41,337 bases of DNA from an uncultured Clostridia bacterium (GTDB taxonomy: Bacteria > Bacillota > Clostridia > Oscillospirales > Ruminococcaceae), in assembly GCA_947631265.1 (NCBI GenBank), contig CANRKQ010000004.1, positions 1 through 41,337 of the forward strand. The letters run 5' to 3'. Both the position numbers and the translations under genes were made by a program. The notes below the pieces were generated by a model. It was given only the letters and a program-made list of their open reading frames with translations. It made no database searches and had not been told where the DNA came from. Each line of letters begins with the position of its first letter. Position 1 is the stretch's first letter. Below are positions 1,342 through 41,155 of this stretch, piece after piece.

Positions 1342-2184
1342 ATGAGGAATATAAGCGTTAAAGATATAGAGAAAAAGGTTGCAGAGCTTTGCATTAAAGC
1401 AAATCTGAGTCTTCCTGAGGATTTGGAGAGTTGTATAAAATGCAAAGCGAGTGATGAGAGGTCAGAGGTCGGAAGAAATGTTTTTTCTGATATAATTGAC
1501 AATATAAATGTAGCAAGAGATGAAACTATTCCTATTTGTCAAGACACCGGAATGGCGGTTATATTTTTAGAAATAGGTCAGGATGTTCATTTTGTTGACG
1601 GGGTTTTATACGAGGCGATCAACAGGGGTGTAGCAAAGGGGTATACAGACGGTTATCTCAGAAAGTCGATAGTATCAGATCCAATAGAAAGGATCAACAC
1701 TAACGACAACACACCTGCGGTCATACATACGAAAATAGTTGAAGGAGACAAGGTTAAAATTGTTGTTGCTCCTAAGGGCTTTGGCAGCGAAAATATGTCG
1801 GCATTAAAAATGATGACTCCATCGGCAACACTTGAAGAAATAATAGATTTTGTTGTTGACACCGTACAAAATGCAGGATCTAATCCATGTCCTCCGATTG
1901 TTGTGGGAGTAGGCATAGGCGGTGATTTTGAGAGCTGTGCTTACAATGCAAAAAAAGCATTATGCAGACCTGTTTCTATAAGGAATCCTAAAGCCATTTA
2001 TTCAGATTTAGAAAACAAAATGCTAGACAAAATAAACAAACTAGGTATAGGTCCTCAGGGTTTTGGAGGATCGGTAACAGCACTAGCTGTGAACATTGAG
2101 CAGTCACCCACACATATAGCTGGGTTGCCTGTGGCAGTAAACATCGGTTGTCACGTTACGAGGCACGCTGAGGATGTAATTTAG
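1342..2184 (+). CDS. Class I fumarate hydratase alpha subunit (Fe-S hydro-lyase, tartrate dehydratase alpha-type)
   Basis: PICQDTGMAVIF, KGFGSENMSALKMM, GVGIGGDFESCAYNAKKAL and NIGCHVTRHAEDV motifs, with three cysteines positioned as 4Fe-4S ligands. Confidence 0.9.
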   Translation: MRNISVKDIEKKVAELCIKANLSLPEDLESCIKCKASDERSEVGRNVFSDIIDNINVARDETIPICQDTGMAVIFLEIGQDVHFVDGVLYEAINRGVAKGYTDGYLRKSIVSDPIERINTNDNTPAVIHTKIVEGDKVKIVVAPKGFGSENMSALKMMTPSATLEEIIDFVVDTVQNAGSNPCPPIVVGVGIGGDFESCAYNAKKALCRPVSIRNPKAIYSDLENKMLDKINKLGIGPQGFGGSVTALAVNIEQSPTHIAGLPVAVNIGCHVTRHAEDVI

Positions 2185-2227
2185 AATAAAATAAAGTTTG
2201 GTATTTAAAATCAATTTAGGTACAAGT

Positions 2228-2261
2228 CGGGCAAGTGTTGAAATATTTGTCCGATATTTTT
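2228..2261 (+). terminator. Terminator after the fumarase alpha gene
   Basis: CGGGCAA ... TTGTCCG stem followed by ATATTTTTATAAA. Confidence 0.6.
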
Positions 2262-2271
2262 ATAAAAAATG

Positions 2272-2300
2272 TTGACAAGGCTAAACATATGTGATAAAAT
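2272..2300 (+). promoter_or_regulatory. Sigma-A-type promoter for tRNA-Leu
   Basis: TTGACA - 17 nt - TAAAAT just upstream of the tRNA. Confidence 0.75.
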
Positions 2301-2316
2301 ACTTTAGTAACATTTT

Positions 2317-2403
2317 GCCGGTGTGATGGAATTGGCAGACGTGCTGGACTCAAAATCCAGTGGTGGAGACACCGTACCGGTTCGACCCCGGTCACCGGCA
2401 CCA
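2317..2403 (+). tRNA. tRNA-Leu (anticodon CAA), CCA encoded
   Basis: Acceptor GCCGGTG/CACCGGC, anticodon stem CTGGA-ctCAAaa-TCCAG, long variable arm, T-loop GGTTCGACCCC, 3' ACCA. Confidence 0.95.
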
Positions 2404-2424
2404 GCAACGGTTAAGTGCAACTGG

Positions 2425-2458
2425 TTCACGTTTTGCATTAGTAAAACGTGAATTTTTT
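2425..2458 (+). terminator. Terminator after tRNA-Leu
   Basis: TTCACGTTTT-GCATTAGT-AAAACGTGAA followed by TTTTTTAT. Confidence 0.9.
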
Positions 2459-2490
2459 ATCTCGCGTTTTATTATGAGATAAAATTTTGC

Positions 2491-2519
2491 TTGACAAAGG
2501 AAATATTTTGTGCTATATT
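2491..2519 (+). promoter_or_regulatory. Sigma-A-type promoter for the T-box/pheST unit
   Basis: TTGACA - 17 nt - TATATT. Confidence 0.8.
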
Positions 2520-2529
2520 TATTTTAAAC

Positions 2530-2770
2530 ATTATGACTGAGAGAGTAGGTTTGCAGTATAGCTTTCAGAGAGGGGAATGTCTGCTGAAAATTCCCTAAGC
2601 AAAATCAGACTGAAGTTCACTCACGAGTGGTTCTGCCGAATTTTTAGTAAGCGGGAACGGATTTTGAAACCGTTAAAATTCAAGGGAGTGTTGGCTCTTT
2701 TAACCATTAGGTGGTATAGCAAGATACGGTCTTGTCCTGATAGGGATAGGGCTTTTTTATTTTATTAAGG
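2530..2770 (+). promoter_or_regulatory. T-box leader of pheST (putative Phe TTC specifier)
   Basis: GAGAGAGTAGGTT start, ...CTGAAGTTCACTCACGAGTGG..., T-box-like ATTAGGTGGTATAGCAAGATA, then a terminator stem CTTGTCCT-GATA-GGGATAGG and a T-run, directly upstream of pheS. Specifier assignment is tentative. Confidence 0.85.
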
Positions 2771-2780
2771 AGGATTATAA

Positions 2781-3800
2781 ATGAAAGATGCACTTTTAAA
2801 AATCAAAGAGCTTGCGGCTGATGAGCTTTTAAAGGTAAACGACACTAAGGCTCTTGAGGAATTAAGGGTAAAATTTCTGGGAAAAAAGGGAGAGCTTACA
2901 TCTATTTTAAAGCAAATGGGTAAGCTTTCGGCTGAAGAGCGTCCTGTTATCGGACAGCTTGCAAATCAGGTAAGAGCAGAGATTGAGGAGTCTATAACAA
3001 ACCGAGTTAAGGAAATAAAGGCTATGACGCTTGAGAAAAAGCTAAAAGATGAGGAGCTTGACGTAACCTTGCCGGGTACTAAGGCGACTATTGGAAAGTT
3101 GCATCCTCTTAATATCGTTTTGAACGAGATCGAAGAGATATTTATGGGTATGGGCTTTGATGTTGTTGATGGTCCTGAGGTTGAATATGATTATTACAAC
3201 TTTGAGGCTCTAAATCTTCCGGCTGATCACCCTGCAAGGGATACTCAGGATACATTTTATATTACCGATAATATCCTGCTCAGAACTCAGACGTCTTCCG
3301 TTCAGGTGCATGTTATGGAGGAGAAAAAACCTCCTCTCAGAATAATTTCTCCGGGCAGAGTGTACCGCTCTGACGCAGTTGACGCAACACACTCACCGCT
3401 GTTCCACCAGATTGAGGGGCTTGTTGTAGACAAGGGCATTACAATGTCTGACTTGGTTGGAACACTAGAACTGCTTATGAAGCGTCTTTACGGCGACGAC
3501 TGCAAGATAAGACTTCGTCCGCATCATTTTCCGTTTACAGAACCCAGCGCCGAGGTGGATGTAATGTGCTTTAACTGCGGCGGAAAGGGCTGTTCTATGT
3601 GCAAGGACGAGGGATATATCGAGCTTTTAGGCGCAGGAATGGTTCACCCTAAGGTTTTGGCAAACTGCGGAATAGACCCTGAGGTTTACTCAGGCTTTGC
3701 ATTCGGGCTTGGTCTTGAGAGAATAGTTATGAGAAGATACGGAATAAACGATATGAGACTGTTATTTGAAAACGATTTGCGTTTCTTAAATCAGTTTTAA
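2781..3800 (+). CDS. pheS: Phenylalanine--tRNA ligase alpha subunit
   Basis: Class II motifs [30 protein letters not shown] and [16 protein letters not shown]. Confidence 0.98.
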
Positions 3801-3821
3801 TGCGTAAGGGAGGTTTATTTA

Positions 3822-6236
3822 ATGGATTTATCAATGAAATGGCTGAGCGACTTTGTTGACGTCAGCGATAAAAGTATAAAGGATTTTTGCTATGATATGA
3901 CAATGTCAGGTTCAAAGGTAGAGGGTTATACCCCTGAGGGCAAGGACATTACAAACGTAGTAGTAGGACAGGTTTTGTCGGTTGTTCCGCATGATAATTC
4001 CGACCACCTTGTAGTATGTCAGGTAGACGTGGGAACGGAGCGGCTTCAGATAGTTACAGGAGCTCAAAATGTAAATTCTGGGAACTATGTGCCTGTAGCT
4101 TTGAACAATTCAACGGTTTTGCACGACGGCAAGCCTGTTAAGATAAAAAACGGAAAGCTCAGGGGAGTTGAGAGCAACGGTATGCTGTGCTCTCTTGAAG
4201 AACTTGGACTGACAGTACACGATTTTCCTTATGCTATTGAAGACGGAATTTTCATTCTGGGAGATGACTGCGATAAAACTCTTGGTAAAGAAATAAAAGA
4301 GGCTATTGGATTTAACGATACAACAGTTGAGTTTGAAATAACCTCTAACAGACCCGATTGCCTGTCGGTTTTAGGTTTGGCAAGAGAGGCTGCCGCTACC
4401 TATGGAATAAAAAGAACGCTTAAAGAGCCTTCATACAAGGGTATTGACGGCAACATTGAAGATGAGCTTTCAGTTGAGATAAAAAATCCTAAGCTGTGTT
4501 CGAGGTATATTGCAGGAATTGTCAAGAATGTTAAAATAGAGCCGTCACCGAGATGGATGAGAGAAAGACTTCGCGCAAGCGGAGTACGTCCAATCAATAA
4601 TTTTGTAGACATTACAAACTATGTAATGCTAGAGTATGGTCAGCCTATGCACGCGTTTGATTTAAGGTATGTAAACGGAAACAGCATTATAATCCGCAAT
4701 GCAAAGCAGGGTGAGAAGATAGTTACGCTCGACGGCGAGGAGAGAACGCTCAGCGAGGAGATGCTTGTTATTGCCGATAAGGATAAACCTGTTGCTGTTG
4801 CAGGAATTATGGGCGGAGAATATAGCGGTATTATGAGTGATACGACTACTGTTGTATTTGAGGCAGCCTGCTTTGACGGGGCAAGCGTAAGAAGAACTGC
4901 AAAAAAGCTTGGTATGAGAAGTGATGCGTCAGCACGATTTGAAAAGGGACTCAGTCCAAAGAATTGCTATCCAGCGATAATGAGAGCCTTTGAGCTGGTT
5001 GAAGAGCTTGGGGCAGGAGAGGTATACAACACGATTATAGACAGAGACTGCTCACAGGTGAGTGAAAACCCCGTTGAGTTTGATTCTGAATGGATAAACA
5101 GCTTTTTGGGAACAGATATTCCTGAGAGCGATATGATAGAATATCTTAAAAGACTTGATTTTGAGGTTCGGGACGGAAAATGCTATGCGCCGTATGTAAG
5201 AATAGACATTGCTTGCAAAGCCGATATTGCGGAAGAGGTTGCAAGGATTTACGGATATAACAACATACCGTCCACATTGTTAAAGGGCGTTGCCGAGGCG
5301 AGAAGAACGCCTGAGCAGAGATTTATAAAAAGCGTTCAGTCGTCAATGGTATCTATGGGTCTGAACGAAATAGAAACTTATTCATTTATTTCGCCGAAAT
5401 ATTTTGACAGAATATCTCTTGACGGGGATAGCAGACTTCGTGACGCGGTTACTATAACAAACCCTCTAGGTGAAGATACGTCAGTTATGAGGACAACTAT
5501 AATCCCTTCTATGTGTGAAACTCTTGCAAGAAACTATAATTACAGAAATATGAAAGCGTCATTGTTTGAGCTTGGAAATGAGTATATCAAAACGCAAGAC
5601 GGAAAGCTCCCGAATGAGCCGGTGCGTCTTTGCATTGGTATGTATGATTCAAACGGGGAAACGGATTTTTATTCTTTAAAGGGAATTATCGAGGAACTTC
5701 TGAATGTTATTTCAATAACCGAATATGACGTTGAGCTTGCAGGCACCAGTTGTGCTTTTGATGAGTATAGAGCCTTCCATCCGGGAAGAGTGGCGGTATT
5801 AAAGAAAAATGATGTTGAGTTTGGTATTTTCGGAGAGCTGCACCCTTCGGTTCTGGAAAACTATGATATAGGTACAAGAACTTATATTGCAAAACTGAAT
5901 GTTCCGGAGATGATGGCTCTGGCTGATGCTGAAAAGACCTATAAGCCCTTGCCCAAATATCCCGCAGCAACAAGGGATCTGTCACTTGTATGCGATGATA
6001 AAATGCCTGTTGCCTCATTGGAGAAAGCTATAAAGTCAGCGGTGGGCAAAACGCTTGAAAAGGTTACCTTGTTTGACGTTTATAAGGGTGAGCAGATAGA
6101 AAGAGGAAAGAAGTCGGTATCATATTCTATTACAATGCGTTCTCACGAAGGCACTCTTACGGACGAACAGGCAGACGCTGCAATGAAGAGGATTTTAAAG
6201 TCTCTTAAAGAGCTTGGCGCTGAACTAAGAGCATAA
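3822..6236 (+). CDS. pheT: Phenylalanine--tRNA ligase beta subunit
   Basis: EMAP-like N-terminus, B3/B4 and B5 domains (EITSNRPDCLSVLGLAREAAA), anticodon-binding C-terminus; directly follows pheS. Confidence 0.98.
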   Translation: MDLSMKWLSDFVDVSDKSIKDFCYDMTMSGSKVEGYTPEGKDITNVVVGQVLSVVPHDNSDHLVVCQVDVGTERLQIVTGAQNVNSGNYVPVALNNSTVLHDGKPVKIKNGKLRGVESNGMLCSLEELGLTVHDFPYAIEDGIFILGDDCDKTLGKEIKEAIGFNDTTVEFEITSNRPDCLSVLGLAREAAATYGIKRTLKEPSYKGIDGNIEDELSVEIKNPKLCSRYIAGIVKNVKIEPSPRWMRERLRASGVRPINNFVDITNYVMLEYGQPMHAFDLRYVNGNSIIIRNAKQGEKIVTLDGEERTLSEEMLVIADKDKPVAVAGIMGGEYSGIMSDTTTVVFEAACFDGASVRRTAKKLGMRSDASARFEKGLSPKNCYPAIMRAFELVEELGAGEVYNTIIDRDCSQVSENPVEFDSEWINSFLGTDIPESDMIEYLKRLDFEVRDGKCYAPYVRIDIACKADIAEEVARIYGYNNIPSTLLKGVAEARRTPEQRFIKSVQSSMVSMGLNEIETYSFISPKYFDRISLDGDSRLRDAVTITNPLGEDTSVMRTTIIPSMCETLARNYNYRNMKASLFELGNEYIKTQDGKLPNEPVRLCIGMYDSNGETDFYSLKGIIEELLNVISITEYDVELAGTSCAFDEYRAFHPGRVAVLKKNDVEFGIFGELHPSVLENYDIGTRTYIAKLNVPEMMALADAEKTYKPLPKYPAATRDLSLVCDDKMPVASLEKAIKSAVGKTLEKVTLFDVYKGEQIERGKKSVSYSITMRSHEGTLTDEQADAAMKRILKSLKELGAELRA

Positions 6237-22078: not shown

Positions 22079-22257
22079 AAAATTTTCCTATTATTTATTA
22101 AATAATGATTTTTACATAACTAACAAGTAAATTATATCATTATTCAGAGCAATAGTCAACCGGAGGCGTTACCATATATCAGGTTGTCAGTATCTTTTGA
22201 AATAGCTGAAGCTTGTATCATTAATTTTTTATTTTAACAACTGTGTAACATAAAGTA

Positions 22258-22286
22258 ACCGCCTTTGAGAAATTCTCAAAGGCGGT
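22258..22286 (-). terminator. Hairpin downstream of GH5 gene, likely terminator
   Basis: Perfect palindrome ACCGCCTTTGAGAA-A-TTCTCAAAGGCGGT; the minus-strand T-tract (TTACTTTATG) is weak. Confidence 0.55.
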
Positions 22287-22309
22287 AAATAATTCAACAT
22301 TTTCGTTGA

Positions 22310-25138
22310 TTATTTAACTTTTACTTTGCTGAGTTTTTTGTTCCATGCGCTATATACCTTCTGTACTACGTTGTTCTTGTCCTTGTATGTAGCGTATGCT
22401 CTTACTCTTACATAGTAAGTCTTCTTGCTCTTTATCTTCTTGTTCTTGATTGTAAGTTTCTTATTTGTTGTTAACTTATTGAAGATTATCTTACTCTTCT
22501 TGAACTTCTTGTTTGTTGATACCTGTACCTCGTAGCCCTTTGCTTTCTTGACTTTGTTCCAGGTTGCATTTATCGTCTTCTTAGACTTGCTCTTGACTGT
22601 CAGCTTGGTTATCTTAGCTTGTTTCATTGCCTTCTTTGCTGCTGACTTGTCCTTCTTAACAGCTTTTGCACTTCTTGTTGCCTTTGTTGTAGTTACAGAA
22701 GCGGCAGGTTTCTTTGAGGTAGTTGGTTTTACAACAAGCTTTGCAATTGCGTTCTCAATTGCAGTTGCATATCCATCAACTACGCTCTGCTCTGATTTGT
22801 TCTTATTACGATCTACAGCGGCAACAGCATCTCTAACTGCCTTTGCAGATTCATCTGTGTATTTGCTTAAATCAGATGGAACCTTTGCAACTGCTGCGTC
22901 AACTTTTGCATAATCTGCCGGTTTGTATTCCAGAGCCTCGATTGCTGCATTAAGTGCACTTGTAGCTTGATCTGCCTCATATTGAGTTGCTTCTTCACCC
23001 TTTGCTAAAACTGATTTAGCTTTAGCAAGTGCATCTGTTAAAGCAGGAATAGTTTCATCTGTGCACCAGCTTGGGTCAATAGCGTCAGCTTTAGTGATTG
23101 CTGCCTGAAGTGCTGTGAAATCTGTAGGTTTACCTTTTCCGCAGATCTCGCAGACATCGTCTACATAACTGTGATCTCCATACTTTAAAAGTTCGGTGTA
23201 TGTTTCATTACATACGACACATTTAAATTCATATTTTTCTCTTTGTACGCAATTTCCCTTAACTTTTTTAAGTTGGTAACTATGAATATGTGCAGTTTTC
23301 ATAGATATAATTAGTGAATATCCTGTCAGGGTTATTGAAGGACTTTTTGTGCCGTAGTATATGTTTAGTCCGTTTGGTCTATCAGCTACACCTGAGTATG
23401 TTGCAAATACAGCCTGAGCGTCAATATAACCGGTATATACTCCATTTTCATCCTTTTTACAATCACTGAAATAAATATAGTTATCATTCCATCCATCCCA
23501 GTTAGTATTTGTATATGGAGCTAAACGGAATGCAATTGCAGTTTCATCATTAGGTATTTCGCCATTTACTGTGAATTGAACTTTTATTTCTTTTGCATGA
23601 TCAAAGTCAAACTGAGGACTGGTAATTGACATAATATAATTATCAGCTTCTGTATTTACATCTGAAGGAGTCTGAGGCTTATTAGATATGACCTTTTCAT
23701 ACGTTACGCTTGAATTATACTCCAGATTATTAATAGCTTCCGTAAGTGTAGATATTGCTTTGGTATAATCTTCATCATTTGAAGAGCTATTGTTATATAT
23801 TGCTTTAACATCTTCTAATATACGGGAAAATTCAGTCCATGAATCTTCAACAATCCAGTCTTTATTTACATCTTCTGCACGAATTATAGTTAAACCAAGC
23901 TTTTCCTTTTTGGTCACATAGACATCTATCATTGCGTCTAAAACCTCTTGACAAACAATCTCATATGTATTTCTGTCAAAGAGACCATAGCTGTTTGTAG
24001 CTACTCCGTTGTCCCAATAAACAGGCACACATCCGTACTTTTTGCAATCTTCACAGAATGTCTTGACATAATATGATCTAAACTGAGTGTTTAATGGGTC
24101 ATAGTTTGATTTATCAATACATCCATATTCACCGATAATTACAGGATAGCCTTTATCTACAAAATTTTCTTTCATCTTTTTGAGCTGTCCATCCATATAA
24201 TCTTCATCAGCCCAAACACCATTCTTTTTACTTGGAACTCCATCTTTTCCCCATTGTGTGATACCATTACTTGCTTTACCATCACCTACGAAATCCCATG
24301 GGGCATAGTAGTGAACTGACATCATAATTCTATTTTCTGTAATAGAGGAGTTTCTATATTCATCAGTAGGAAGTTTAAATATTTCCTTCTGCAAGTATTC
24401 TACTGAATTATCAATATCAGTATTACGACCGCATACAAGTAGCCATCTCTTATCATTGTTTCCGCCTGTCTGACGAACGGTATCAACAAAAATTTGGTTA
24501 TATGCATTAATATTTGGATAGTCTGTTTCAGAATTAGATTGAAATTCTTCATTCATAGACTCAAAAATAAGGTGCTCATCGTAATCCTTGAATACATTTG
24601 CAATCTGCTGCCAACACGCCTTATATTTAGCTCGGATTTCTACCTGTTCCTCTTCTTTTTTTCCACACAGCAGCCATCCGCCTGCTACTGTAGTATATCC
24701 GTCGCCGTGCATATTGATAATTGTATAAAGCTCATCATCAATTGCATAATCAACGACTTCCTTAACTCTAGCAAGCCATTCAGGGTCTATAGTATAATCA
24801 GGACCCTCGCCAATTGACGCCAAATAAGAAACGGGTATTCTAATTGATTTATAGCCTGCCAGCTTAACTGCGTGAATAAGCTCCCTTTGTACAGTAGGGT
24901 TGCCCCAGTATGTTTCATCAGGATATTGATCAGCGCCTCCAACCTCAAGCTGATTTCCTAAGTTCCAACCGGCACCCATTGCTTCTGTAATTGTGTTTTG
25001 ATCCAAATCGATGAAATCGTCGTTCGCATTAGCAGCGCTAGTTGTAACAGAAAATGTACTTACTACAGCTGATATCGCCATAACAGCTCCCATCAGCCCT
25101 GAAATAATTTTCTTAATCTTCATGTTTTTATTCCTCAT
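22310..25138 (-). CDS. Secreted multimodular GH5 endoglucanase-like protein with FIVAR-like and C-terminal FN3-like modules
   Basis: Signal peptide; GAGWNLGNQLE, SIRIPVSY, IFESMNEEF (acid/base), VIIGEYGC (nucleophile); repeated LTEAINNLEY/LNAAIEALEYKP FIVAR-like segments; KAKGYEVQVSTNKKF...YYVRVRAY FN3-like C-terminus. Confidence 0.93.
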   Translation of the reverse strand: MRNKNMKIKKIISGLMGAVMAISAVVSTFSVTTSAANANDDFIDLDQNTITEAMGAGWNLGNQLEVGGADQYPDETYWGNPTVQRELIHAVKLAGYKSIRIPVSYLASIGEGPDYTIDPEWLARVKEVVDYAIDDELYTIINMHGDGYTTVAGGWLLCGKKEEEQVEIRAKYKACWQQIANVFKDYDEHLIFESMNEEFQSNSETDYPNINAYNQIFVDTVRQTGGNNDKRWLLVCGRNTDIDNSVEYLQKEIFKLPTDEYRNSSITENRIMMSVHYYAPWDFVGDGKASNGITQWGKDGVPSKKNGVWADEDYMDGQLKKMKENFVDKGYPVIIGEYGCIDKSNYDPLNTQFRSYYVKTFCEDCKKYGCVPVYWDNGVATNSYGLFDRNTYEIVCQEVLDAMIDVYVTKKEKLGLTIIRAEDVNKDWIVEDSWTEFSRILEDVKAIYNNSSSNDEDYTKAISTLTEAINNLEYNSSVTYEKVISNKPQTPSDVNTEADNYIMSITSPQFDFDHAKEIKVQFTVNGEIPNDETAIAFRLAPYTNTNWDGWNDNYIYFSDCKKDENGVYTGYIDAQAVFATYSGVADRPNGLNIYYGTKSPSITLTGYSLIISMKTAHIHSYQLKKVKGNCVQREKYEFKCVVCNETYTELLKYGDHSYVDDVCEICGKGKPTDFTALQAAITKADAIDPSWCTDETIPALTDALAKAKSVLAKGEEATQYEADQATSALNAAIEALEYKPADYAKVDAAVAKVPSDLSKYTDESAKAVRDAVAAVDRNKNKSEQSVVDGYATAIENAIAKLVVKPTTSKKPAASVTTTKATRSAKAVKKDKSAAKKAMKQAKITKLTVKSKSKKTINATWNKVKKAKGYEVQVSTNKKFKKSKIIFNKLTTNKKLTIKNKKIKSKKTYYVRVRAYATYKDKNNVVQKVYSAWNKKLSKVKVK

Positions 25139-34894: not shown

Positions 34895-36334
34895 ATGGAA
34901 GAAATTAAAATGTATTCATTGCATATGGGAAAGGCAAAATGTGCTGTTGATCTGGGCGACGGCTCTGAAAGAGGGGAATATGTAAATCAGGATTATATTC
35001 TGAACAGAATGGGCAGACCGCACAGAAGTATCAGTCTGATGTACTGCTACTATCCTCTTGATAAGGAGTGGCCGGGCAGAATTTCAGAGGTTATGAAGGA
35101 CGCTGATATCTCATTTCAATGGGACTACCCGTATGATGATTATTTTACATATAAGGGTGGACTCGGGGGAACGACCGACGATGAGCCGTTCACTTATATG
35201 AGAGATGTTCGCCGTCACGGACAAGACGTTACACTGACCTTAACGATAGACCCTAATATTACAGACGAGCATTTGATTGCGATAGCTGAGGATTTAAAGC
35301 CATTCGGAAGAATGTTTCTGAGAATAAATCACGAGGCGACGGGCAACTGGTTCAGCTTTAACAAGAGATGCTCATATCAGGAGGTTGCCGATTTCTATTG
35401 CAGATTTAACAGGATTTTGAAAGAACACGCCCCTAATGTTCAGACAATTCTATGCATAGGCGGAATAGAGGATACTAACAAAGAGGAAATAGAGAAAGAG
35501 GCTGAATTTACTCAGGCAGTTAAGGAAACCGACATATGGTCGGTAGATAAATATATGGCTCTCCATTGGGGCTGGCCTTATGATGTTGCCGAAAAGGGCG
35601 GTAACACTCACAAGAGATATAATGTAGACTCTATTTATGATCTTACAAAAATGTCGTTTGAGAGATTTAAATACTTAAACGGCGGCGTTGAAAAGCCTAT
35701 GGTTATGAGTGAGTTCAATGCTGACGGAGATGTTACAGGACCTTATGATCAGGCAAAAATGGTCAAGGAGTTCTGTGACAGACTAAAAAGAGAGAATGCA
35801 ACGTGGTTCAGCGGATTTACATTCTATCAGTTCCGTGACAGGGGACGTTTAGGACTGGAAATTCAAGACCCTAACAATGTAGATGTCGGTATTGAACAGC
35901 CTTGTATGAGTACATATAAGGAAATAATACACGATGATTATTTCTATCCGGAAATGACTGTTGGAGATGAGATTTCTCTTCCCTGTACTCTTCGCTGGGG
36001 AGGTTCTGAGGACTCAGACGGAATTGCAATACCTCTTCATTTTGAGAAGAATCCGCATTTCTGCGAGCTTGTCTTCGATGCCGATGATGAATCTAATCTT
36101 ATGTTTGAGCTCAATGGTAAATGGTTTTACAAATCCCCCGAGGCTAAGACTATTGATATGATGAGCGCTTTCTTTGAAAAGCCTCTGAACGGCGAGTGCG
36201 ATATGACGCTTAAGATCTTTGCGCCTCCGGCAAGCGGTGAAAACGATTTGTCGATAGAGGACGGTCTTTTCAATTCATATACTACAATTAAAAAGCTACC
36301 TAAAATAAGAATAAGATTTGAACCTATAGAATAA
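34895..36334 (+). CDS. GH26-like (clan GH-A) glycoside hydrolase, no signal peptide
   Basis: FLRINHEATGNWFSF (GH26 HEmnGxWF acid/base region), DIWSVDKY, KPMVMSEFNADGD (putative nucleophile Glu); C-terminal beta-rich extension. Confidence 0.75.
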   Translation: MEEIKMYSLHMGKAKCAVDLGDGSERGEYVNQDYILNRMGRPHRSISLMYCYYPLDKEWPGRISEVMKDADISFQWDYPYDDYFTYKGGLGGTTDDEPFTYMRDVRRHGQDVTLTLTIDPNITDEHLIAIAEDLKPFGRMFLRINHEATGNWFSFNKRCSYQEVADFYCRFNRILKEHAPNVQTILCIGGIEDTNKEEIEKEAEFTQAVKETDIWSVDKYMALHWGWPYDVAEKGGNTHKRYNVDSIYDLTKMSFERFKYLNGGVEKPMVMSEFNADGDVTGPYDQAKMVKEFCDRLKRENATWFSGFTFYQFRDRGRLGLEIQDPNNVDVGIEQPCMSTYKEIIHDDYFYPEMTVGDEISLPCTLRWGGSEDSDGIAIPLHFEKNPHFCELVFDADDESNLMFELNGKWFYKSPEAKTIDMMSAFFEKPLNGECDMTLKIFAPPASGENDLSIEDGLFNSYTTIKKLPKIRIRFEPIE

Positions 36335-36605
36335 ACCAGCGAACCGCTGGAGGCTCTGCCGCCTTTGAGAAGTAAGATAAATGTTAGAGATTGAGCAACG
36401 GCGGGTTTGCATTTGGTTTAAAGGAATAAATTCGACCAGCGAGCCGCTGGAGGCTCTTCCGCCTTTGAGAAGTAAGATAAATATTAGAGGCTGAGCAACG
36501 GCGGGTCAGTATTTTTAATAAAGGAAAAATTTGACCAGCGAACCGCTGGGGATTCTGCCGTATCCGTTACCGCCTTTAGGAAGATTTCCTAGGGCGGTTA
36601 TTTTT
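36335..36605 (+). repeat. Three-unit ~100-bp tandem repeat, each unit starting with CCAGCG-N3-CGCTGG
   Basis: Units begin at 36335, 36435 and 36534; units 1 and 2 are near-identical over ~75 bp; unit 3 diverges after the palindrome and ends in a terminator. Confidence 0.9.
36569..36605 (+). terminator. Terminator ending the GH operon/repeat array
   Basis: ACCGCCTTTAGGAA-GAT-TTCCTAGGGCGGT followed by TATTTTTG. Confidence 0.85.
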
Positions 36606-36682
36606 GTGTAATGTGTAATTTATTATATAATAAGACAAGCTTTGCTAAAGTTTTTGCAGAAATGTTCTCTGTTAGCCATTTG

Positions 36683-36711
36683 TTGCAAAGCAGGAAGAAT
36701 AGTGATATAAT
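36683..36711 (+). promoter_or_regulatory. Promoter for recJ
   Basis: TTGCAA - 17 nt - TATAAT. Confidence 0.65.
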
Positions 36712-36742
36712 ATATTATTAATAGCTGAGAAAGGAAAGTTAT

Positions 36743-38758
36743 ATGAAACGCTGGGAAATAAAAAAGCCTGATCCTCAAAAGGTTGATGAAATTTTAAAAA
36801 AAAGCGATTTAACATCATTGTGCGCTGAAGTTTTAGTGTCAAGAGGTTACGATACTATGGAAATGCTTGTCGATTTTTTCAAAAACGACGAGCTGTCAGA
36901 CCCTATGCTGTTAAAGGATATGCCGCAGGCAGTTGAGGTTATTTCCCGGGCAATGTATAACGGAGAGCTTATATGCGTGTATGGGGACTATGATTGTGAC
37001 GGTGTAACTTCTACCACAATTTTGTTGAATTACCTCGATTTCAACGGAGCTAAAACTATGTATTACATTCCCGACCGGGAAGAGGGATACGGTATCAACA
37101 AAGCCGCAGTCGATAAGCTCAAGGAGCAGGGAGTTTCTCTAATAATTACCGTAGATAACGGAATTTCAGCAATAGAGGAGTCAAAGTATATAAAAGAGCT
37201 TGGAATTAAGCTTGTTATAACCGACCATCACCAGCCGAATGATGAACTTCCCGTAGCTGACGCAGTAGTCAATCCCCATCGTGAGGATTGCCCGTCGCCG
37301 TTTAAGGATTTAGCGGGAGTAGGCGTGGTGTTCAAGCTATGCGCTGCGCTTGACGGAGATTACTCTATTGTTTCTGAGCAGTTTTCCGACCTTGTAGCTA
37401 TTGGAACTATTGCAGATATTGTTCCTCTAAGGGGAGAAAACAGAAGTCTTGTCAAGACGGGATTGAGTATGTTTGAAAACAGCGAGAATTACGGCTTACT
37501 ATATTTGCTTGAAAAGTGCGGAATAAATAAGAGCAGAGTTACATCAGACTCTGTGGCGTATGGAATTTCTCCTAGGATCAACGCAGCGGGTAGGTTCGGT
37601 TCTGCATCAACTGCGGTAGAGGCTCTGATTTCGGAGGATGAAAGCGCAAAATTTGATATTGATAAGCTTATTTTGCTCAATAACCAGAGAAAAGAAACTG
37701 AGAGAATTATACTTAAGAGTATTTTTGAATATATAGATTCAAATCCTGATATATTAAATGAAAAGGTGTTGGTAATAAGCGGAAAGGGCTGGCATCACGG
37801 GGTAATAGGAATAGTATCTGCGAAATTAACGGAGCTTTACGGAAAGCCCAACTTTATAATTACAGTAGACGATAATGGAATAGGCAGGGGTTCGGCAAGG
37901 AGCTTTGAAGGGTTTAATATTTACAAATGTCTTAAATTCTGTGAAGACGCCTTAATTAGATACGGCGGACATAACTGTGCAGGAGGTTTTACGATAAAGG
38001 CTGATAAAATACCTCAGTTTTCAAAAATGGTTTCGGCATTTGCTGGGAAATGCGATAGCTTAAGCGGTATGGTAATTACAGCCGATAAGCTGCTCGAGGC
38101 TAAGGACTTTGACATTAATATGGCGAATAGCTTAAGTATTCTTGAGCCGTTCGGCGAGGGAAACAAAATGCCGGTATTTGCAATAATAGGCGCTGTTGTC
38201 AGAAAGATCATTCCTCTGTCGCAGGGCAAACATACAAAAATAGAATTTTCATATGACGGAATTGTTCAGACTGCGCTTTTGTTTTCAAGACCTGCGTCAA
38301 TGCTTTCGTTTAATGCGGGAGATAAGATTGATATGCTTGTAAATATGGCGGTTACTGAGTATAACGGAAAAAATCAGTTATCTGTAAAGGTTGTTGATTA
38401 CAGAAATCACGGTGTTTCGGCAAATAAATATTTTGCGGCAAAATTCTGTTACGAGGCATATAAAAGGGGTGAACCTGTGCCTGTAAATGTCGTTCACCGA
38501 GTAAAGCCGTCAAGAGATGAGCTGGTAAGGATTTATAAATACATTAAGGCTATAAAACGCGTGTCTATTGATAAACTGTTTATGAAATTCAATACGCAGT
38601 CGATGAATTATTTTAAACTCCGCATATGCTTAGACGCATTTAACGAGCTGGGATTGATAAAGCTTATAGCGTCGAGACAGGAGGTACATATAGTTGAAGT
38701 GTCAAAAAAGGTTGATCTTTCTGAATCGACTGTATTGAATAAAATATATTCTTTATAA
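36743..38758 (+). CDS. recJ: Single-stranded-DNA-specific exonuclease RecJ
   Basis: VYGDYDCDGVTSTTILLNYL, TVDNGISAIEE, VITDHHQP, VVNPHREDCPSPFKDLAGVGVVFKL, GRGSARSFEGFNIYKCL, RYGGHNCAGGFTI. Confidence 0.97.
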   Translation: MKRWEIKKPDPQKVDEILKKSDLTSLCAEVLVSRGYDTMEMLVDFFKNDELSDPMLLKDMPQAVEVISRAMYNGELICVYGDYDCDGVTSTTILLNYLDFNGAKTMYYIPDREEGYGINKAAVDKLKEQGVSLIITVDNGISAIEESKYIKELGIKLVITDHHQPNDELPVADAVVNPHREDCPSPFKDLAGVGVVFKLCAALDGDYSIVSEQFSDLVAIGTIADIVPLRGENRSLVKTGLSMFENSENYGLLYLLEKCGINKSRVTSDSVAYGISPRINAAGRFGSASTAVEALISEDESAKFDIDKLILLNNQRKETERIILKSIFEYIDSNPDILNEKVLVISGKGWHHGVIGIVSAKLTELYGKPNFIITVDDNGIGRGSARSFEGFNIYKCLKFCEDALIRYGGHNCAGGFTIKADKIPQFSKMVSAFAGKCDSLSGMVITADKLLEAKDFDINMANSLSILEPFGEGNKMPVFAIIGAVVRKIIPLSQGKHTKIEFSYDGIVQTALLFSRPASMLSFNAGDKIDMLVNMAVTEYNGKNQLSVKVVDYRNHGVSANKYFAAKFCYEAYKRGEPVPVNVVHRVKPSRDELVRIYKYIKAIKRVSIDKLFMKFNTQSMNYFKLRICLDAFNELGLIKLIASRQEVHIVEVSKKVDLSESTVLNKIYSL

Positions 38759-38786: not shown

Positions 38787-40982
38787 ATGGCTAATTCAAA
38801 AAACTATTCAATTGATCTTCTGATAGAAAAAATAACCAGCGAGGATAAAAAGTATGATCTGGATAAAATCACGCGCGCATACGAGCTTGCTGAGAAAAGC
38901 CATGAGGGTCAGATGCGCGATTCGGGTGAGCCTTATATAACTCACCCTATTGCTGTTGCTCTGATAGCTATTGACCTCGGAATGGATACAGATTCTATTT
39001 CGGCAGCGCTTTTGCACGATGTTGTAGAGGATACGGATATCACTATCGAACAGGTTAGAAGCGAGCTTGGTCCTGACGTCGCTATGCTTGTAGACGGTCT
39101 GACAAAGCTGAGAAAGATTCCTCTTGCGACAAAAGAGGAGCAGCAGGCAGAGAATGTGCGAAAGATAATTCTTGCAACAAGCCAGGATATAAGAGTTATT
39201 ATTATAAAGCTGTGCGACAGACTTCATAATATGCGCACTCTGCAATACAGAACTGACGCTAAGAGAAGAACTACTGCTCTTGAAACTATGAACATATATG
39301 CGCCTATAGCTCACAGGCTGGGAATACAGTCAATAAAAGAGGAAATAGAGGATCTTTCATTTCAGTATCTGGATCCGTATGCCTATGAGGAAATAGACAA
39401 ACAGATGAATATGCGCAAGGAAAAGCGTGTGGAGCTCATTGAAAAGATAAAGGATAAAATAAGGGCAAGGCTTAGCGCTGAGTTTGACCCTGTTCCCGAA
39501 ATTGAGGGAAGAGTAAAAAGCAACTACGGCATTTACAAAAAGATATTCCGGGACGGAAAGGATATAGATCAGATTTACGATAAGTACGCGGTGAGGATTA
39601 TTGTAAATACAGTTACAGAGTGTTACGGCGTTCTGGGAATAATCCACGAGATGTTCAATCCTATCCCTAACAGATTCAAGGACTATATTTCTACGCCTAA
39701 ACCCAACATGTATCAGTCGCTGCACACAACGGTTATCGGACGGGAGGGCATACCATTTGAGGTTCAGATAAGAACATGGGATATGCATCATACCGCTGAA
39801 TACGGAATTGCCGCACATTGGAAATACAAAGAGGGAATTACTAAAAAGGATAAAAACGACGAGCGTCTTGCGTGGATAAGAAAAATTCTGGAGACTCAGA
39901 AGGAAGCCGACGACGTTGAGGAGATCGTGAGAACGATTAAAAACGATCTTGCTCCAGAAGACGTTTTTGCCTATACACCGAAGGGAGATATGATCTCTCT
40001 GCCTGTTGATTCTACAGTAATTGACTTTGCGTATGCTATTCACACGCAGGTAGGCCACAAAATGATAGGCGCTAAGGCTGACAATAAAATGGTTTCTATC
40101 GACCATAAAATTCAGACAGGCGAAATTATAGAGATATTGACCTCCAACAATGAGAATCACGGACCCAGCAGGTCGTGGCTCGATATAGCAAAGACGAACG
40201 ATGCAAAGTCAAAAATACGCTCTTGGTTTAAGAAAGAACGTCGTGAGGAGAATATCATTGAGGGTAAAGCAGAGCTTGAGCGTGAGTTCAAGAGAAATTT
40301 CATTCATGTGCCAGAGAACGATTTAGAGGAATTTCTTGCTGCCGATATGAAACGTCATAACTGCGACAGTCTGGACAGCTTTTATGCGGCAATCGGATAC
40401 GGCGGAGTTCAGTTGCACAAGGTTATAAGGAGATTAAAGGACGAATACACGAAGAAATATGCAAAGCCTTCTGATATTGACAAATCGTCTATTGATGTTC
40501 AAAACGACGCCGGCAAGAGCAACTCATCGGGTGTAATCGTTGACGGAATAAGCGATTGTCTGGTTAAGTTTGCTGCCTGCTGTTCGCCGCTGCCGGGAGA
40601 CGATATTGTGGGCTTTATAACCAAAGGACATGGGATTTCCGTTCACAAGAGAGATTGTGTGAATTTCATAAATCAGACCAAGGCGGAGGAAAACAAGCAT
40701 AGATGGGTTTCTGTGCATTGGGCAGAGGAGAGAAACACATCATACTTTAGAGCGACGCTTGATTTGGTCGCGTATAACAGAATGGGTCTGCTTGCGGATA
40801 TTTCAAACGTTCTGGCGGCTATAAAAATACCTATGCACGAGGCTGCGGCAAGGGAGCTTAAAAACGGCAATGCAAATGTAATTGTCACTATTAGTGTTGC
40901 AGGAAAAGAGCAGCTCGAAAATGTAATATCAAGGCTTATGAAAATCGATAGTATTATTTCTGTTGACAGAACGGGTAAATAA
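38787..40982 (+). CDS. RelA/SpoT family (p)ppGpp synthetase/hydrolase
   Basis: HD domain ALLHDVVEDTDITIEQV, synthetase DKYAVRIIVNTVTECYGVLGIIH, TGS and ACT domains. Confidence 0.97.
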   Translation: MANSKNYSIDLLIEKITSEDKKYDLDKITRAYELAEKSHEGQMRDSGEPYITHPIAVALIAIDLGMDTDSISAALLHDVVEDTDITIEQVRSELGPDVAMLVDGLTKLRKIPLATKEEQQAENVRKIILATSQDIRVIIIKLCDRLHNMRTLQYRTDAKRRTTALETMNIYAPIAHRLGIQSIKEEIEDLSFQYLDPYAYEEIDKQMNMRKEKRVELIEKIKDKIRARLSAEFDPVPEIEGRVKSNYGIYKKIFRDGKDIDQIYDKYAVRIIVNTVTECYGVLGIIHEMFNPIPNRFKDYISTPKPNMYQSLHTTVIGREGIPFEVQIRTWDMHHTAEYGIAAHWKYKEGITKKDKNDERLAWIRKILETQKEADDVEEIVRTIKNDLAPEDVFAYTPKGDMISLPVDSTVIDFAYAIHTQVGHKMIGAKADNKMVSIDHKIQTGEIIEILTSNNENHGPSRSWLDIAKTNDAKSKIRSWFKKERREENIIEGKAELEREFKRNFIHVPENDLEEFLAADMKRHNCDSLDSFYAAIGYGGVQLHKVIRRLKDEYTKKYAKPSDIDKSSIDVQNDAGKSNSSGVIVDGISDCLVKFAACCSPLPGDDIVGFITKGHGISVHKRDCVNFINQTKAEENKHRWVSVHWAEERNTSYFRATLDLVAYNRMGLLADISNVLAAIKIPMHEAAARELKNGNANVIVTISVAGKEQLENVISRLMKIDSIISVDRTGK

Positions 40983-41155
40983 CTAAATAACAAGAGCTGC
41001 GTTGTATCATCTGCTGTCAATATTAGCTTTTTTCAATGATAAATATTGCATAATGGCAGGCGTTATATTGCTTAGTCTTTCCAATATTTTCAGTATATCT
41101 GCAATATTTTTACCTAATAAATATCTAATTAATAAGCTGCAAAGGAGATAAAACA

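Follow-up and report, generated by a model that had tools for sequence, protein, structure and literature searches.

The systems closest to the repeat described here are the REP/REPIN elements with their RAYT (TnpA-REP) transposases, the BOX elements of Streptococcus pneumoniae and S. suis, the MITEs (RUP, NEMIS, ERIC, Bcr1) and the attC sites of integrons. Ribosome stalling has been reported, with reference to earlier work, for E. coli REPs lying no more than 15 nt from a stop codon (PMC12306157). REPs of the GTAG type frequently provide a TAG stop, and the survey of GTAG/CGTC palindromic repeats names several phyla, showing neither Firmicutes nor Clostridia (PMC3733652). In the pneumococcus, 36 genes take their stops from BOX elements, which have been judged to be parasites (PMC3049150).

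The family reported here is REP/BOX-like in kind and different in build. Like REP/REPIN elements, it consists of short palindromic, high-copy dispersed repeats with variable stems, found in tandem and inverted arrays and near where the upstream open reading frame (ORF) ends. However, a REP is a 20–40-bp palindrome, whereas our unit has two hairpins in ~85 nt; by inspection, the listed copies lack a constant GTAG or CGTC tetranucleotide flanking hairpin 1, and no Y1 transposase tracks the presence of the family. On the terminal tag (by inspection) and on the transposase, the repeat does not qualify as a REP. With BOX it shares a modular, structured, dispersed Firmicute repeat that often supplies the stops of upstream genes, but sequence and hairpin order differ, and terminal inverted repeats and target duplications were not recognised in it. 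MITEs are likewise short, non-coding, folded, high in copy number and near genes; in aligned copies of our family, no long terminal inverted repeats were seen. Integron attC sites conserve structure over letters and lie directly behind stop codons in a single orientation. The family resembles them in structure kept over letters and in position, but it is scattered behind chromosomal genes rather than gathered in one cassette array, has two separate hairpins, and shows no R-box pattern recognisable by eye.

The window, a 41,337-nt stretch of DNA from an uncultured Clostridia bacterium, carries the array directly behind an upstream gene; recJ and a RelA/SpoT gene lie downstream. Units were scored with a covariance model, R1, trained on 26 copies from several genomes. 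The parts are as follows.

34895–36334, plus strand: ORF of the upstream gene; its TAA stop (36332–36334) is the anchor of the array
36335–36434, plus strand: unit 1, hairpin 1 at 36336–36350 (CCAGCG-AAC-CGCTGG), 96.5 bits with R1
36359–36363 (CCGCC) and 36400–36404 (GGCGG), plus strand: hairpin 2 of unit 1
36435–36533, plus strand: unit 2, hairpin 1 at 36436–36450 (CCAGCG-AGC-CGCTGG), 87.7 bits with R1
36459–36463 (CCGCC) and 36500–36504 (GGCGG), plus strand: hairpin 2 of unit 2
36534–36568, plus strand: unit 3, truncated, with hairpin 1 at 36535–36549 and unlike the family beyond it; 22.1 bits with R1 (covering 36533–36610)
36569–36605, plus strand: intrinsic terminator, ACCGCCTTTAGGAA-GAT-TTCCTAGGGCGGT (36569–36598), then a T-rich tail
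40985–41072, plus strand: decayed copy just 3′ of the RelA/SpoT stop (40980–40982), 21.0 bits with R1, E 0.0013

The hairpin-1 copies (CCAGCGAACCGCTGG at 36336–36350, CCAGCGAGCCGCTGG at 36436–36450 and CCAGCGAACCGCTGG again at 36535–36549) are spaced 100 and 99 nt apart, starting at 36336, 36436 and 36535, and all three fit CCAGCG-RRC-CGCTGG (R = A or G). Over 100 nt, units 1 and 2 match at 82% of positions. The array, with R1 scores of 96.5, 87.7 and 22.1 bits, is far beyond chance. An earlier note on this DNA had described three units at 36335–36605 right behind the stop, a CCGCC/GGCGG second stem in units 1 and 2, and a third unit that passes from its first hairpin into a real terminator; all of these were located. 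Its naming of the upstream gene as GH26-like found no support, the gene at 34895–36334 having no match among Pfam families or PDB sequences.

Scanning the plus strand from 36200 to 36800 for terminators returned 36574–36594, the inner stem of the terminator at 36569–36605, as the sole qualifier; hairpins 1 and 2 of units 1 and 2 failed. That the unit is itself an intrinsic terminator was rejected, since hairpin 2 lacks a T-run and the terminator is a separate structure. The related genome G003 has a counterpart (GGGCGGTT...TTTGTGTAA) at the equivalent position, and the window array therefore sits between the stop codon and its terminator. Elsewhere in the window, a terminator-like stem (ACCGCCTTTGAGAA/TTCTCAAAGGCGGT; 22246–22311, minus strand) closely follows the stop of the 22310–25138 gene; its 5′ arm resembles CCGCCTTTGAGAA of the unit, so that there may be a link between hairpin 2 and terminators. 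The window also holds a tRNA and a T-box leader (2317–2400 and 2524–2742, plus strand), both ordinary.

Across the family, hairpin 1 mostly has a 6-bp stem and a 3–4-nt loop (AGC, AAC, TGA or GTGA). Hairpin 2 follows it, with CCGCC-T-TTG pairing with CAA-C-GGCGG around a loop that holds a conserved AAATGTT. The comparison across copies proposed in the earlier note revealed compensatory changes in both stems. Hairpin 1 occurs as CCGGCG/CGCCGG, CCAGCG/CGCTGG, CCGGAG/CTCCGG, CCGCCG/CGGCGG, GCAACG/CGTTGC, GAAACG/CGTTTC and GCAGGGC/GCCCTGC; hairpin 2 occurs as CCGCC/GGCGG, CTGCC/GGCAG and GTGCC/GGCAC. The 6-bp stem that the note had called invariant is so within the window, but not as a rule of the family. 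In our alignment A2, 96.1% of cells were paired, with double changes at six pairs, and shuffled and slid controls were far lower. RNAalifold recovered the two-hairpin fold in agreement with the covariation. When units 1 and 2 were folded alone, the minimum-energy fold was a competitor, and the best two-hairpin fold lay 3–4 kcal/mol higher; the predicted two-hairpin fold is based on covariation. Wobble cells on the array strand (86 G.T versus 41 A.C) mildly favour it as the transcribed strand, the asymmetry being modest and the copies non-independent.

BLASTN with units 1 and 2 as query, also proposed in the earlier note, found ~30 further places, some of them weak, in the same 1.59-Mb genome. 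Among 15 genomes of the genus, ten bear the element, with 47 to at least 145 R1 matches each and at least about 990 copies in total; because 150 candidates were scored per genome, the high counts may be lower bounds. The five sister species had 0–1 matches each. High copy number is seen in a subclade of the genus. Exact-pattern matches in public records were uncultured Clostridia MAGs labelled “Lapin,” a name that implies rabbits. A survey of the order, covering 394 genomes from 169 genera, gave convincing matches only in the window's genus and, patchily, in g16, another genus of its family; the two isolated near-threshold matches outside these genera resemble chance. There were no matches in phage records, plasmid records or viral contigs. 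In Rfam 15 the window unit fell below the gathering cut-off of every family, and permissive thresholds likewise gave nothing credible. A search of the accessible literature found no earlier description of the repeat. The array units are tandem copies of an undescribed family of short, non-coding dispersed repeats of uncultured gut Clostridia.

Weak R1 matches in one g16 genome, G170, led to that genome's own repeat family (39 BLAST matches), which has the length and two-hairpin layout seen in the window's genus, stems such as GCGGCT-GTG-AGCCGC, and CCGCCTTT...AACGGCGG in common with it. Its units often start directly after TAA or TAG. RNAalifold again gave two hairpins, with double changes limited to 2 pairs. 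A model built from the G170 copies alone (R2) and run on 398 genomes matched back mainly to element-bearing genomes of the window's genus. At the G170 orthologue of the window's upstream gene, a unit lies between stop and terminator. In the congeners G029 and G380 a terminator directly follows the stop, without a unit. In G746 a unit again lies behind a stop, with different stems (GCCGAG-TTC-CTCGGC).

We determined the genomic context of the units in ~1.1 Mb of stretches from G000, G004 and G012, with ORFs called mechanically without a gene finder. These stretches held 118 units in 81 clusters; contigs of the window's own genome had been picked for carrying matches, and the G004 and G012 stretches mostly otherwise. 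In 46 cases the first unit had an upstream ORF on its own strand; for 30 of these, hairpin 1 began between −10 and +5 nt relative to where the stop codon ends. The expectation was 4.4, and none of 100,000 random placements reached 30 (maximum 13). Hairpin 1 takes one of two positions: it comes immediately behind the stop, as in TAA|CCGGCG... and TAG|GCAACG..., or it encloses the stop, as in GCAGGGC-TGA-GCCCTGC and GCAACG-TAA-CGTTGC. One orthologous stop carries CAGGGC-TGA-GCCCTG in G012 and GCAACG-TAA-CGTTGC in G000. In the element-free sister species, none of 202 genes had a hairpin that overlaps the stop or comes immediately after it. Unit 3′ ends showed little anchoring to convergent stops (3/26), and about one third of clusters oppose the strand of the upstream gene or lie far from any stop. 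Two artefacts were considered and rejected. A stop carried by the unit does not explain the anchoring, because hairpin 1 with an AGC or AAC loop contains none and the gene's own TAA, TAG or TGA directly precedes it. Nor does a TAA/TAG insertion target, because units that are not behind genes lack such a flank. The genes themselves are unrelated and include a GroEL-like one with a GGMGGMY terminus. Solo hairpins with a stop in the loop (GCAGGG-ATAG-CCCTGC and GCAGGGG-TGA-CCCCTGC) were also seen at L037 271–1773 (minus strand) and 2060–4384 (plus strand), not called in full units.

Tandem arrays occur in the window and at C24, C32, C9, C36 and C103, some units form tail-to-tail inverted pairs with a gap of 27 nt, and G006 differs from G004 and G012 in the presence of units. 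The RelA/SpoT orthologue of G004 carries an intact unit at the position of the window's decayed copy. The arrays, inverted pairs, presence/absence differences and decayed copy show that units are copied, lost and decay. A transposase search of the genomes gave no copying enzyme that tracks element presence. A RAYT or IS200-IS605 transposase was rejected as the current mobiliser on its mismatched distribution: Y1_Tnp (PF01797) is absent from the element-bearing G000, G002, G008 and G011 and present in G007 and G013 (0–1 copies). Empty sites were too diverged to define a target duplication. Along G004:C1:1–400000 (L084–L103) units are uneven, with none in the first 175 kb and a peak at 200–240 kb; the unit-free region surrounds a GC-skew switch at ~60 kb, maybe the replication terminus. 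In the arrays of L036, L037 and G12C1, units are interleaved with other repeats (ACAAATCTTTTGTATCTCGCGTTTGT-type, GCAGGGGTCACCCCTGC-type, and simple repeats such as TTCTAATTTCTAGCTTCTA and ACAATTGACAATGGATAATTA).

We favour, with a probability of about 60%, the interpretation that these are new, short, non-autonomous dispersed repeats, copied in trans and kept at mRNA 3′ ends as 3′-UTR hairpins. A putative factor acting in trans would copy units around the genome, tandem duplication would multiply them locally, and units would persist where the transcribed hairpin sits at the point where a coding region ends. By analogy with E. coli REPs, such hairpins may hinder 3′-to-5′ decay, slow the terminating ribosome, or both. 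Of four options in the earlier note, the dispersed REP-like palindromic element and the 3′-UTR element survive jointly, and no result speaks for a protein-binding array or processed small RNAs. Neutral local duplication covers the tandem step alone. That note had tied neutral duplication to a sole locus without compensatory stem changes; we found many loci and clear compensation. The 82% identity of units 1 and 2 does indicate that the tandem step is local, but the ~30 further places and the copies in ten genomes (at least about 990), together with the compensatory changes, refute neutral tandem duplication of a 3′ UTR at this locus as the full explanation, and we give it hardly any credence. 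A dedicated cis-acting regulatory RNA or riboswitch-like class serving the upstream or downstream gene is very improbable: it would fit the two conserved hairpins and the conserved loop motif, but not the lack of an Rfam match, the unrelated genes (the GroEL-like one included), the tandem and inverted arrays or the absence from close sister species.

A purely selfish REP/MITE-like DNA parasite is a possible, if doubtful, explanation. The hairpins would then be single-stranded DNA recognition structures for a transposase-like enzyme, and the anchoring would combine an insertion preference with the removal of copies from coding and 5′ regions; the host would gain nothing. Patchy spread across two genera, presence/absence differences between close species, the inverted tail-to-tail pairs with their 27-nt gap, and the precedent of the stop-supplying pneumococcal BOX elements (PMC3049150) are consistent with a parasite. 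However, the −10 to +5 peak is sharper than tolerance of 3′ insertions would yield, no simple sequence target is visible, since units not behind genes lack a TAA/TAG flank, and no Y1 transposase tracks the repeat. Our preferred interpretation, of trans-copied repeats kept as 3′-UTR hairpins, also has a stronger form that we consider unlikely, in which the repeat is coupled to translation termination: hairpin 1 would be placed or held exactly on stops or just behind them and, at many genes, would act on the ribosome as it terminates or on the mRNA's 3′ end; the copying process may itself favour stops. If this were true, the different stems at the orthologous stop (CAGGGC-TGA-GCCCTG versus GCAACG-TAA-CGTTGC) would do one job, and the family would be a self-spreading termination-hairpin system.

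The family combines unusually sharp stop anchoring, stem replacement at orthologous sites, close relatives free of copies, and a related repeat in another genus. Whether stop-adjacent repeats are tolerated debris or are held for their action on mRNA ends or terminating ribosomes can now be tested by comparison.
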